Assembly: GCA_017472575.1 (NCBI GenBank)
Contig: JAFUPX010000019.1
Location: forward strand, 1-32,059
Reading direction: 5' to 3'
From: Clostridia bacterium
GTDB taxonomy: Bacteria; Bacillota; Clostridia; Oscillospirales; Acutalibacteraceae
Length of the DNA stretch: 32,059 nucleotides
Positions 27,690 to 31,755 of this stretch are shown piece by piece. Positions within the stretch are counted from its first letter, which is position 1, and each line of letters begins with the position of its first letter. The notes below the pieces were generated by a model that did no database searches, was not told the DNA's origin, and saw only the letters and a program-made list of their open reading frames with translations. Made by a program: the position numbers and the translations under genes.

Positions 27690-28313
27690 TTATTTAATTT
27701 CTGTTAAAAAAAGTTTTTCGCCCTGTACTTGAGCCGTAATTTTACCTGAAAACACTTCGGTCAGGTTCTTTTCAAAGTCCTCGTATATTTCATTTTTTAA
27801 ATAACAAGTAATTTCAACCTCGGCAGCAAATTCTGTACCGTCAACCGATGCTCCGTAATCTTTCAGCAGATTAGTAAGCTGGGTATGATAAGAATAAGGG
27901 CACTTTATATAAATCTTTTTACAAAGCGTTTTTTGAGCTTTTACAGCAGATAAAAGCGCATCCTTAGCAGATTTTGAATATGCACGGACAAGTCCTCCCG
28001 TTCCCAAAAGCACGCCCCCGAAATACCTTGTAACAACCACTGCTACATCATTAAGACCCATTCCGTTTAGACAATCGAGAATAGGCTTTCCGGCAGTACC
28101 GTGAGGCTCACCGTCATCCGAAAATCTCGAATTTCCGTTTACGGTATAAGCATATACATTATGCCGAGCATCCCAATATTTCTTTTTTTGACTTTCAATA
28201 AACAAAAGCGCCTCTTCTTCGGTTTCGCAGTGAATACAGCGGGCTATAAATTTTGAGCGCTTTTCCGTATATTCGGCTGTTGATTCTCCGAGAATTGTAA
28301 TCAGGTTTCCCAA
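27690..28313 (-). CDS. yigZ: YigZ/IMPACT family protein
   Basis: A 207-residue protein with the IMPACT (UPF0029) N-terminal domain, seen in RFSDDGEPHGTAGKPIL and VVVTRYFGGVLLGTGGLVRAYS. A DUF1949-type ferredoxin-like domain follows. Members bind nucleic acid or ribosomes; the eukaryotic relative inhibits Gcn2 activation. TTG 28313 is chosen since GGAGG lies nine bases upstream; the frame upstream of it runs back through the rpmE terminator. Confidence 0.9.
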   Translation of the reverse strand: MGNLITILGESTAEYTEKRSKFIARCIHCETEEEALLFIESQKKKYWDARHNVYAYTVNGNSRFSDDGEPHGTAGKPILDCLNGMGLNDVAVVVTRYFGGVLLGTGGLVRAYSKSAKDALLSAVKAQKTLCKKIYIKCPYSYHTQLTNLLKDYGASVDGTEFAAEVEITCYLKNEIYEDFEKNLTEVFSGKITAQVQGEKLFLTEIK

Positions 28314-28333
28314 AGCAAAATTCCTCCAAAAAG

Positions 28334-28366
28334 AAAAATCCGTAACTGCCGCTTGGCAGTTACGGA
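28334..28366 (-). terminator. Terminator of rpmE
   Basis: A perfect 12-bp stem, TCCGTAACTGCC (28339-28350) with GGCAGTTACGGA (28355-28366), has a 4-nt loop and is followed on the minus strand by TTTTTCTTTTT. Unlike other hairpins in this window, the next gene's SD lies beyond the T-run, not within the stem. Confidence 0.9.
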
Positions 28367-28374
28367 ATAAAGGC

Positions 28375-28578
28375 TTATTTTTCCATACCGAAACGCTTTT
28401 TAAATCTGTCAACGCGTCCGCCGGTATCTACCAATTTCTGCTTACCTGTAAAAAACGGATGACATTTTGAACAAATATCCAAACGGATGTCTTTTTTAGT
28501 AGAGCGTGTTTCAAATTCCGCACCACAAGCGCACTTTACGGTTACCTTTTCATACTGCGGATGAATACCTTCCTTCAT
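28375..28578 (-). CDS. rpmE: 50S ribosomal protein L31 (zinc-binding type)
   Basis: A 67-residue L31 of the C+ type, with CACG and CSKC providing zinc ligands. [19 protein letters not shown] and [15 protein letters not shown] are typical. The second of two tandem ATG codons (28578) is chosen, seven bases after AGGGGTG. It has its own promoter and terminator. Confidence 0.95.
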
Positions 28579-28653: not shown

Positions 28654-29265
28654 TTATTTTATGATTTTTTTCAATTTTTCATATATTTCGACCGCTTTAA
28701 ACTGCATAATATACCTTTGAGAATCCTCAGCAACAGCCGCAGATTCCTCAGTTACACTATCTGTGAGTTCTGATTTTGAAGCTGCCGGAATACAAACTCC
28801 CGGAAAAACAACACACCACCAGTTTTTACCTTTTCCATCCCCTAAACGAATGATAAGCGATTTATAGGTTCCTGCGGGCAAAGAAAAATCGTCATATTCT
28901 CTTGTTTCAAAATAGCTGTCGCCTATTTCTGCTTTTGCACTGTACTCAAAACCGTTTTCCTCCAAAACCCTTAAAGCCGTTTTCTCAAACTCCGGCAAGG
29001 AATTTCGTGCGCTGTTTAAAGCTCCGTTAAGGTCTGTATTTGTATCAAAAAGCTGTGAGGTTTCAGAAAGTATAGCGTCCCTTACCTTAAGTTTAATGTT
29101 TTGGTCTGCCTCGCTGTCGGAATTTGCAATTATATGAAGTCTTAATACATTCGTCCGTAAATCCTCACAGGCGGCATCAAAATGCGAAAAAGACATCATT
29201 ACCGCGCATATAAGTCCAAATAAAACAGCAAGCTCTAATCTTTTCTTATTAGTAAATTTTTTCAA
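28654..29265 (-). CDS. spoIIR: Stage II sporulation protein R (SpoIIR)
   Basis: A 203-residue protein with an N-terminal hydrophobic segment (about 12-29) that acts as export signal, then the SpoIIR domain: LRLHIIANSDSEADQNIKLKVRDAIL and KNWWCVVFPGVC are diagnostic. In Bacillus the forespore secretes SpoIIR to activate SpoIIGA, which processes pro-sigma-E. The start is TTG 29265, with GGGAG eight bases upstream inside a hairpin arm (29270-29316). Clostridial genomes often have it near ispE, as here. No sigma-F-like promoter is obvious in the short gap. Confidence 0.93.
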   Translation of the reverse strand: MKKFTNKKRLELAVLFGLICAVMMSFSHFDAACEDLRTNVLRLHIIANSDSEADQNIKLKVRDAILSETSQLFDTNTDLNGALNSARNSLPEFEKTALRVLEENGFEYSAKAEIGDSYFETREYDDFSLPAGTYKSLIIRLGDGKGKNWWCVVFPGVCIPAASKSELTDSVTEESAAVAEDSQRYIMQFKAVEIYEKLKKIIK

Positions 29266-29321: not shown

Positions 29322-31052
29322 TTATTCAATTTTTAAAGCTGTTTGCTTTGGAACGGTTAAATAGCACTCATTATATTTTGTAACAGCAATCTTATATGCC
29401 GCCTGTGCCTTTTGCTCATCCTCAAACAAAGCAAAAACTGTGGGACCGCTGCCCGAAAGAACCGCCGCATCTGCGCCGAGAGCTTCTAATTCTGCCTTTA
29501 AACCGCTCTGATCGCTGACTTTTTCAAAAGAATTACCCACATTATCGCATATTCTGCTGTAATCCTTTTCTTTTAGAGCAGAAACTAAATCAGGGGTATT
29601 GGGAACATCATATTCTCCGCTATCAAGCTTACCGTACATTTCTTTAGTTGAAGACTTTTTGCCGTGCTTTACAAGAAGTATGTAACAGTTTTCCAGCGGC
29701 TCACAGGCTGTTAAAATTTCACCTATACCCTGAGCTCGCTGTGTGCCTCCCTCTATAAAGAAAGGAACATCTGCACCTAATCTTTCTGCTAAAAGTATAA
29801 GTCTTTCATTTGTAAGCTCTGCTTTATAGATTTTATTAAGCGCAACAAGCACCGCTGCGGCGTCCGCACTGCCGCCGCCTAATCCTGCACATTCGGGTAT
29901 GCCTTTTTTTATGCTGATTTTAGCACCGCCCTGTATTCCGGTTTCACCGAAGAAAAGCTTAGCCGCCTTAAATGCTATATTTTCCTCCTGCGGAATATCG
30001 CATTTATCGCAATTTACTGAAATTTCTTTTTGTTTTTTTATTGTTAGCTTATCGTAAATACCTACCGACTGCATAACCGTATCAATATCGTGGTAGCCGT
30101 TTTCCCTTTTGCCTAGAATTCCGAGACCAAGATTTATCTTTGCAAACGCTTTAACGGAAACAGTATTATTATTTTTTATATTGAGAATAACAACCGCCGA
30201 AAGCACCAGCAAAATACCTAAAAATCCCACTGTATCCAAAGGCTCCTTAAAAAGGAAGGTTCCAATAAGCGTTGCCACAACCGGCTCAACCGTTGCCATA
30301 ATAGGCGCCATAGACGGCTCAACACCCTTAAGACCGTTTGTATATAAAATATACGGAAATACCGTATTTACCAAAGCCATTCCGAAAACTGTTAACAGTA
30401 GGTTTAAGGAGGAAAATGCCGCCGATACCGTTTCAAATGCATTTACAAACGGTATACAGCCTATACTTGCACATAAAAAGGTATAAAAGGTTATAGTTAA
30501 AGAAGAATAACCCTTTTTAAGCAAAATCTCTCCAAAAACGGTATACATTGCGTAGCCGAAGCCTGTAAGCAGGCCGAAGAAAAGAGCCTCTGCGCTTATC
30601 TTTTGCCCTGAGCCGAAAAGCCCCGAAACCATACAACATCCAATAAAAGCACAGACACAGGCAAATAATTTTTGCAAGGTAAGCTTTTCCTTAAACGCAA
30701 ATACTGAAATAAAAACCACAAAAAACGGTGCGGTATAAAGCAAAACAGCCGATACGGACAGGGATGTCAGCGACATTGTTTTATAATACGAAAAATTAAA
30801 TAAAACGATACTTACAATGCCTGATGCGGCAAACCACGGCAAATCCTTTATTTTAATTTTAATAAGCCTTATATCCTTTATATGGGTAATTACTCCGATT
30901 ATTACACACGAAAGCAAAGCTCGCCAAAGAACTATCTGCATTTCGCTTAAAATTCCCTCAAGGCTCCTTACAAAAACACCTGCCGTTCCCCAAAGACAGG
31001 CGGCAAGCAATATAAAGCTTACAGATAATAAACTGTTTTTTTTACTTCCCAT
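29322..31052 (-). CDS. ispE: EamA transporter - IspE kinase fusion protein
   Basis: One 576-residue frame. Residues 1-294 are a complete EamA/DMT-superfamily transporter with ten predicted helices in two repeats. Residues 299-576 are a complete IspE, which phosphorylates CDP-methylerythritol in the MEP isoprenoid pathway. IspE motifs: KAFAKINLGL (Lys305), PECAGLGGGSADAA (GHMP loop, 387-400), GADVPFF (Asp428) and VLSGSGPTVFALF. The junction is only NIKNNNTVSV. No ATG, GTG or TTG and no SD lies where a separate IspE would start. DMT proteins usually have both ends in the cytoplasm, placing the kinase inside. ATG 31052 overlaps the vanZ-like gene by 11 bp. The substrate of the transporter half is unknown. 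Confidence 0.9.
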   Translation of the reverse strand: MGSKKNSLLSVSFILLAACLWGTAGVFVRSLEGILSEMQIVLWRALLSCVIIGVITHIKDIRLIKIKIKDLPWFAASGIVSIVLFNFSYYKTMSLTSLSVSAVLLYTAPFFVVFISVFAFKEKLTLQKLFACVCAFIGCCMVSGLFGSGQKISAEALFFGLLTGFGYAMYTVFGEILLKKGYSSLTITFYTFLCASIGCIPFVNAFETVSAAFSSLNLLLTVFGMALVNTVFPYILYTNGLKGVEPSMAPIMATVEPVVATLIGTFLFKEPLDTVGFLGILLVLSAVVILNIKNNNTVSVKAFAKINLGLGILGKRENGYHDIDTVMQSVGIYDKLTIKKQKEISVNCDKCDIPQEENIAFKAAKLFFGETGIQGGAKISIKKGIPECAGLGGGSADAAAVLVALNKIYKAELTNERLILLAERLGADVPFFIEGGTQRAQGIGEILTACEPLENCYILLVKHGKKSSTKEMYGKLDSGEYDVPNTPDLVSALKEKDYSRICDNVGNSFEKVSDQSGLKAELEALGADAAVLSGSGPTVFALFEDEQKAQAAYKIAVTKYNECYLTVPKQTALKIE

Positions 31053-31755
31053 TCTTCCACACTCCGAAAGTAACCGCGGAGAGCTTTTCACTTACCGCTT
31101 TTATTCTGATTATTCCAAAAGCTGTCAATGCACCGGCGGAATTTAAAATCAAGTCATCAATATCAAAAGAGCCGGTAAGCAGTAAAAGCTGTAAAACCTC
31201 AATAGCCGCAACCGATAAAACAACCGCTCCCAAAAAAGCATACCATTTTTTCAATTTTTTGCAAAAAGCGGGAACAAAAAACGCCAGCGGCATAAAAGCA
31301 AGAAAATTGCCGAGTAAATTTGTTATAACAGCTGAAAAAGACAAATTATACAGCCTATACCCTTTAATAAAAAGCTCAATCGTAGCAAAAGGGAGCAAAT
31401 TTACATTTGTATCAAGATATTCCTTTAGTTGAGCAGGATTTGAGAATATAAACCGTATATTTCTGCCGAGACTGTCGTCAATAAGCGTGAAATCAATTAA
31501 TATCGCCGTATACAGTACAAATAAAAAAATAACGGTCTTTTTCATAATTGAGTATTTTCGCTCTGCTTTTCTTTGACGCAGACACGCCGTATAAGAGCCG
31601 AAAAAACTAAAAAAAGCCGTAAAAAAATATATCAATGATTTTTGTATATAAGAAAAATCAAAAATACCGAAAATATAGCATATCAGCAATATAAAAGAAA
31701 AAGCGCTTATTGAATACAGTATCTTATCAATATTATTAAGAAACTGTTTATTCAA
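31042..31755 (-). CDS. VanZ-family membrane protein
   Basis: A 237-residue protein with about six membrane helices. The VanZ-like core is LLPFATIELFIKGY, NLLGNFLAFMPLAFFVP and AIEVLQLLLLTGSFDIDDLILNSAGAL. VanZ itself gives low-level teicoplanin resistance, but most family members are not resistance genes and have no known role; nothing nearby suggests a van cluster. The start is TTG 31755 with GGTGA six bases before it. Its end overlaps the EamA-IspE start, so both belong to one operon. Confidence 0.87.
   Translation of the reverse strand: MNKQFLNNIDKILYSISAFSFILLICYIFGIFDFSYIQKSLIYFFTAFFSFFGSYTACLRQRKAERKYSIMKKTVIFLFVLYTAILIDFTLIDDSLGRNIRFIFSNPAQLKEYLDTNVNLLPFATIELFIKGYRLYNLSFSAVITNLLGNFLAFMPLAFFVPAFCKKLKKWYAFLGAVVLSVAAIEVLQLLLLTGSFDIDDLILNSAGALTAFGIIRIKAVSEKLSAVTFGVWKNGK

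Follow-up and report, generated by a model that had tools for sequence, protein, structure and literature searches.

IspE, the CDP-methylerythritol kinase of the methylerythritol phosphate (MEP) pathway, is known as a separate soluble protein, and the E. coli enzyme is a monomer of 30.9 kDa (PMC5821942). A survey described IspE and most other MEP enzymes as evolutionarily rigid and named IspDF as a fusion (PMC10663253); IspDF is a naturally occurring fusion of MEP enzymes (PMC10663253, PMC5821942). Genes with short overlaps are translationally coupled, and such overlaps are over-represented among the subunits of complexes (PMC10666635). Here we describe a gene in which a carrier of the EamA family, with the drug/metabolite transporter (DMT) fold, is joined in frame to IspE. 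The gene lies on contig JAFUPX010000019.1 of the Clostridia bacterium assembly GCA_017472575.1 (genome G000), and the whole stretch analysed, of 32,059 nucleotides (nt), is referred to as the window. The EamA-IspE fusion was found to be a genuine, conserved domain architecture, confined to one genus in the samples searched.

The kinase half of the window protein matches known IspE in its entire domain, its GHMP motifs and its fold, but here the enzyme forms the C-terminal part of a membrane protein. The other half resembles EamA/DMT carriers in having two EamA repeats, ten predicted helices and the DMT fold; however, it bears a C-terminal enzyme, and its score with TIGR00950, a model for carboxylate, amino acid and amine carriers, was below the cut-off (125.4 versus 230.2 bits). 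IspDF and the window protein are both natural fusions with MEP enzymes, but IspDF joins two MEP enzymes, whereas the window protein has only EamA and GHMP domains and lacked the IspD plus IspF domain combination.

The fusion gene and its distribution

The fusion gene is a single uninterrupted frame, which is already open from a GTG at 31091 (Table 1). In the Pfam search, two EamA repeats (PF00892) were found in the carrier half with 131.1 bits (cut-off 28.2), and GHMP_kinases_N and GHMP_kinases_C in the kinase half with 64 bits (cut-off 22.3) and 39.1 bits (cut-off 21); no domain other than EamA and GHMP was found in the fusion protein at E<=0.001. The NCBIfam model TIGR00154 (ispE) matched the window fusion with 228.2 bits, compared to an equivalog cut-off of 138.7, and this cut-off was exceeded in 10 of the 10 fused genomes listed below. 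The four conserved kinase residues given in Table 1, the serine being that of the GGGS loop, are what we take to be active-site residues of IspE, and they were invariant in all 10 fused proteins and in 65 of 65 alignment rows. A preliminary description of the window had claimed one frame with a complete EamA transporter and a complete IspE, and the frame and these matches confirm it. The few-residue join that it had read as NNNT was also recovered: the boundary reads LN-IKNNNT-VSVKAFAKINL, with the kinase following about six residues past the last helix. In pairwise comparisons, the carrier half was better conserved than the kinase half in 38 of 45 among the fused genomes and in 197 of 231 among those with overlapping genes.

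Table 1. Features of the window at and around the fusion gene
Feature	Position	Strand	Description
EamA-IspE fusion gene	29322..31052	-	576 codons, ATG 31050-31052, stop 29322-29324
EamA/DMT carrier half	30180..31052	-	residues 1-291, ten predicted membrane helices
Join IKNNNT	30162..30179	-	residues 292-297; no start codon within 12 codons ahead of the AKINL lysine
IspE (CDP-methylerythritol kinase) half	29325..30161	-	residues 298-576; Lys305, His321, Ser395, Asp428 conserved
VanZ-like gene	31042..31755	-	upstream
spoIIR	28654..29265	-	downstream
YigZ-like gene (UPF0029/DUF1949)	27690..28412	-	next in the common gene order

The fused protein was searched against 70 genomes of the genus, which were assigned to classes by hand. 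A full-length, stop-free fusion was present in 10 of the 70 (G000, G021, G084, G043, G018, G007, G015, G081, G046, and G071), and the nine other fusions were 45-60% identical to the window fusion. In 22 genomes, a separate EamA gene lay directly upstream of ispE and overlapped it in a different frame. In four genomes (G040, G047, G063, and G064), ispE was in its normal position and a close EamA (45-48%) lay at another locus, and 27 had ispE without a close EamA; among the latter, G052 had a 36% EamA elsewhere and several had distant ones. Two genomes (G073 and G083) had fragments only, and five (G005, G056, G057, G072, and G078) had neither gene, G057 having only a distant EamA. The ispE loci thus numbered 63, of which 53 were unfused.

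Wider samples of 394 order, 398 family, 391 class, and 398 phylum genomes, which overlap and include some members of the genus, were also searched. No full-length fusion from outside the genus was among the matches listed, and the sole full-length match listed in each sample was the window itself. The family search was run at E<=1e-80 and the class and phylum searches at E<=1e-66, the best rows only were listed for the order, and at most three candidates were scored per genome, so a very diverged fusion could escape. None of the long IspE or EamA frames outside the genus (G085, G087, G433, G272, G447, G106, G139, L020, and L024) had both domains.

Since these genomes are metagenome bins and short A/T-rich runs occur near the join, the fusion could be read as an assembly or sequencing error at this A/T-rich place, and the preliminary description had voiced the same worry about a homopolymer frameshift. 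However, the ten genomes sharing the stop-free fusion are diverged, and all ten would need an error at one place. Furthermore, the contigs of G084, G081, and G043 were matchable to the public records CANQGK010000021.1, CALWUY010000066.1, and SVPU01000001.1, whose isolate names are of three distinct kinds. Assembly error was therefore rejected, and we regard it as hardly conceivable. As the preliminary description had supposed, the architecture is undescribed as far as searched: no description of an EamA-IspE fusion was found in the open-access literature, a search that did not cover most subscription journals, bioRxiv and the protein-architecture databases.

The predicted model of the fusion had a mean predicted local distance difference test (pLDDT) score of 82.6, and it contained both the IspE fold and the ten-helix DMT fold, with ten helices counted in the carrier half. 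The last carrier helix ended at residue 291 and the first IspE strand began at 297. The kinase half shared the IspE fold with PDB 4dxl, 3pyd, and 1oj4, and the fold matches of the carrier half were SLC35B1, LicB and the triose-phosphate translocator. When the fusion model was submitted to Foldseek, all 50 matches listed were GHMP-superfamily entries, and a profile search against solved structures yielded weak carrier matches only (5i20, E 0.22; EmrE, E 0.8-0.9). With the N-terminus taken as inside, the loops carried 10-12 lysines and arginines inside versus 3-7 outside in all 10 fused proteins. The model and this charge bias suggest that both protein ends are probably in the cytoplasm and that IspE is probably tethered on the cytoplasmic side of the membrane. 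The membrane anchoring of IspE put forward in the preliminary description would follow from this predicted topology.

Origin and maintenance of the fusion

The unfused relatives in the genus overlap in the manner of translationally coupled gene pairs. The commonest overlaps are of 1 or 4 nt; in contrast, the ispE start nearest the kinase lay 8-38 nt before the EamA stop in 21 of the 22 overlapping pairs of the genus, in a constant relative frame (the exception is G017, 1 nt), and ten other genomes are fully fused. Five of the pairs had additional possible ispE starts further upstream, up to 83 nt. Since the ispE frame was open before the EamA stop in all 22 pairs, a small insertion or deletion (indel) in the overlap would be enough to join the two frames.

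The fused and unfused genes also differed in their starts. In 49 of the 53 unfused loci, but in none of the 10 fused ones, a start codon following a listed ribosome-site word was found no more than 12 codons ahead of the AKINL lysine. Judged from this difference, IspE is likely, though not proved, to be obligately fused in these genomes.

Phylogenetic trees were built for IspE (63 rows, LG+G4), for EamA (36 rows, mixture model) and for the joined alignment (LG+G4); roots were not inferred, and the duplicate of the G007 locus (G007n) was excluded. The 63-row IspE tree omits G000b and G022b, which were included in an earlier mixture-model IspE tree, and both IspE trees require six changes of the fused label. 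In the IspE tree, G071 grouped with the unfused G041, G002, and G014 (98/86), distant from the other fused rows. In the EamA tree, it fell inside a seven-row clade whose other members were unfused (100/100). The approximately unbiased (AU) tests rejected a single clade of all ten fusions on IspE (p 9.5e-59) and on EamA (p 1.1e-8), and a single origin was rejected with it. Because of these tests, the sequences argue that the fusion arose at least twice, in G071 independently of the other nine. One clade of these nine was absent from all three trees, but was not rejected on EamA (p 0.10), on the joined alignment (p 0.49), or on IspE when five EamA-less rows were left free (p 0.26). On IspE, the nine together with four EamA-less rows (p 0.25), or also with G048 (p 0.12), were not rejected either. 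Further fusions or later fissions are possible among the nine.

Two fused genomes had EamA-less sisters, G015 with G001 (100/100) and G021 with G049 (100/98), and the EamA-less G061 and G053 grouped with six fused rows (85/91). Since these EamA-less loci are sisters of fused genomes, we suggest that the carrier half was lost in them after fusion; the alternative is repeated fusion. G049, G053, and G061 were three of the four unfused loci without a start preceded by a ribosome site, which fits descent from fusions as expected under carrier loss; the fourth is G006, G001 has such a start, and this comparison was made post hoc. When 13 of the 27 EamA-less loci were searched for EamA remnants, none was readable as a remnant, the three weak matches (E ~0.001) lying well away from ispE.

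Taken as a whole, we consider it likely that a genuine transporter-enzyme fusion arose from a co-translated overlapping pair and was kept by co-expression and by loss of the ispE start. An ancestor in the genus would have had an EamA gene directly upstream of ispE, in a row of genes closed by spoIIR, and the two would have overlapped, in different frames, where EamA ends and ispE starts; 22 present-day genomes still show this arrangement. The frames would presumably have been joined at least twice by small indels in the overlap, two origins being supported by the trees. The product would be one polypeptide with ten membrane helices, both ends cytoplasmic, and a complete IspE about six residues past the last helix, where the tethered kinase would meet ATP and CDP-methylerythritol in the cytoplasm. 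Because the usable ispE start near the kinase would have been lost, IspE would be made only with the carrier, in a 1:1 ratio. Persistence would thus most likely come from co-expression and lock-in, not from channelling.

A core MEP kinase has in this way come to form the C-terminal end of a ten-helix carrier, and most fused genomes seem to have no other IspE. The genus keeps fused, overlapping-unfused and EamA-less states and therefore offers a natural series for the change from overlap to fusion. The series also bears on whether an enzyme that is soluble and as a rule essential can function once it is bound permanently to the membrane. Moreover, the fusion is a lead on an uncharacterised carrier, and its host group is one of uncultured gut Clostridia.

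Copy number and internal starts of IspE

When the 10 fused genomes were searched for the IspE family, a single match, in the fused frame, was obtained in nine of them and two matches in G000. Dxr was found in all 10.

Several points weigh against the proposed explanation. The fusion is known here from sequence, and the predicted template modelling (pTM) score of the model was 0.61, the relative placement of the carrier and kinase halves not being fixed by it. The EamA-less sisters (G001, G049, and G061/G053) show that the link between carrier and IspE is dispensable. Completeness of the fused bins is 77-97%, so a second IspE could be absent from them. Furthermore, G000, the genome of the window, has a second, free IspE at C36:18733-19524 (L051 4225-5097), whose nearest row in the set was that of G061 (46%), and the fusion is perhaps not the sole copy if this contig is native. 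For the MurT on the same contig, 15 genomes of the genus and 8 of the order gave no match at E<=1e-20, and the contig is therefore possibly foreign or mis-binned. The G+C content of the piece, however, was near that of the window (42.5% compared with 39.6%).

Possible internal starts belong to the same points. In G018 (ATG), G007 (GTG), and G081 (ATG), a start codon was present 7-10 codons ahead of the AKINL lysine, and in G021 a TTG at 12 codons. Start codons of the fused genes were listed up to 22 codons before this lysine, and starts after a ribosome-site word were found 14-22 codons up, inside the last helix, in G000, G007, G015, G084, G081, and G046; the strongest word was the AGGAG before the GTG of G015, 20 codons up. 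Such starts, the near ones and that of G015 above all, would speak for ispE being also started internally, or else the fused product might later be cleaved, with a free soluble IspE as the working enzyme in either case. However, none of the near starts in G018, G007, G081, and G021 followed a listed ribosome-site word, unlike those of nearly all unfused loci. G071 had no in-frame start within 22 codons, and G000 had only a GTG at 22 codons, after AGGT. Moreover, the spacing from LN to AKINL varied from 9 to 14 residues among the fused proteins, with no obvious kept cleavage site. A free working IspE is thus unlikely, and we prefer the fused enzyme locked to its carrier.

The G000 contig with the second IspE also carries a GATase_3 protein and MreB besides MurT. 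In G022, a second IspE (C15), 89% identical to that of G019, was found on a 3.3 kb contig and is probably a bin contamination.

Candidate substrates and gene neighbourhood

The preliminary description had suggested that the carrier could move a metabolite of the MEP pathway, or that the link could serve dosage only, and the loci examined did not bear out a tie to such a metabolite. Away from ispE, the EamA relatives of G063 and G064 adjoined M20 peptidases and that of G047 lay one gene away from one, which is a lead on the substrate of the carrier. In G040, the EamA gene away from ispE was near Wzz and acyltransferase genes, and the neighbours at eight order-level EamA loci included a YbaK-like or a short-chain dehydrogenase/reductase (SDR)-like gene (names by eye). 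Around the EamA relatives outside the ispE operon, no gene with an isoprenoid role was recognised in the genus loci examined or in these eight.

The carrier might nevertheless export or import an MEP compound, such as methylerythritol, its cyclodiphosphate or a cytidine nucleotide, and the kinase would then be placed at the mouth of the carrier as an adaptive coupling. The DMT fold match gives no substrate, the choline importer LicB being within 1.5 Z, the EamA relatives have the neighbours described above, and the EamA-less sisters of the fused genomes keep IspE at the locus. We consider such a coupling unlikely. A shared metabolic role of carrier and IspE is possible, with recurrence as its one piece of evidence. 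Its fuller form, a membrane-tethered MEP pathway in which the carrier handles an MEP intermediate or a cytidine compound, transport sets the flux of IspE at the membrane and selection favoured the link at least twice in the genus, seems doubtful. What the carrier transports is probably some small molecule without a tie to the pathway, for instance an amino acid or an amine, though this is a weak inference.

The fused gene occupies the usual ispE place of the genus, since it shares its gene order with the unfused loci. spoIIR was downstream of ispE in all 10 fused loci and in 52 of the 53 unfused ones (62 of 63), the exception being G082, which stops at the contig end. The counts of the other neighbours are lower bounds, the stretches compared being unequal in length: YigZ was downstream in at least 8 of the 10 fused and 36 of the 53 unfused loci, a polysaccharide deacetylase-like gene (Pfam) was upstream in at least 6 and 27, and a VanZ-like gene was upstream in at least 2 and 18, respectively. 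A gene that we take to be dGTPase-like was next in the row wherever the stretch was long enough. In two other families of the order, spoIIR followed the IspE gene directly in G036 and about 660 bases on in G106, suggesting that the ispE-spoIIR link predates the EamA insertion. In the window, the end of the VanZ-like gene overlaps the ATG of the fusion by 11 nt (31042-31052), and because of this overlap the translation of the carrier may be coupled to that of the VanZ-like gene. In G001, a trpB-like gene was ahead of ispE, and spoIIR was followed by ribosomal protein L21/L27- and Obg-like genes, where many loci have YigZ (names by eye).
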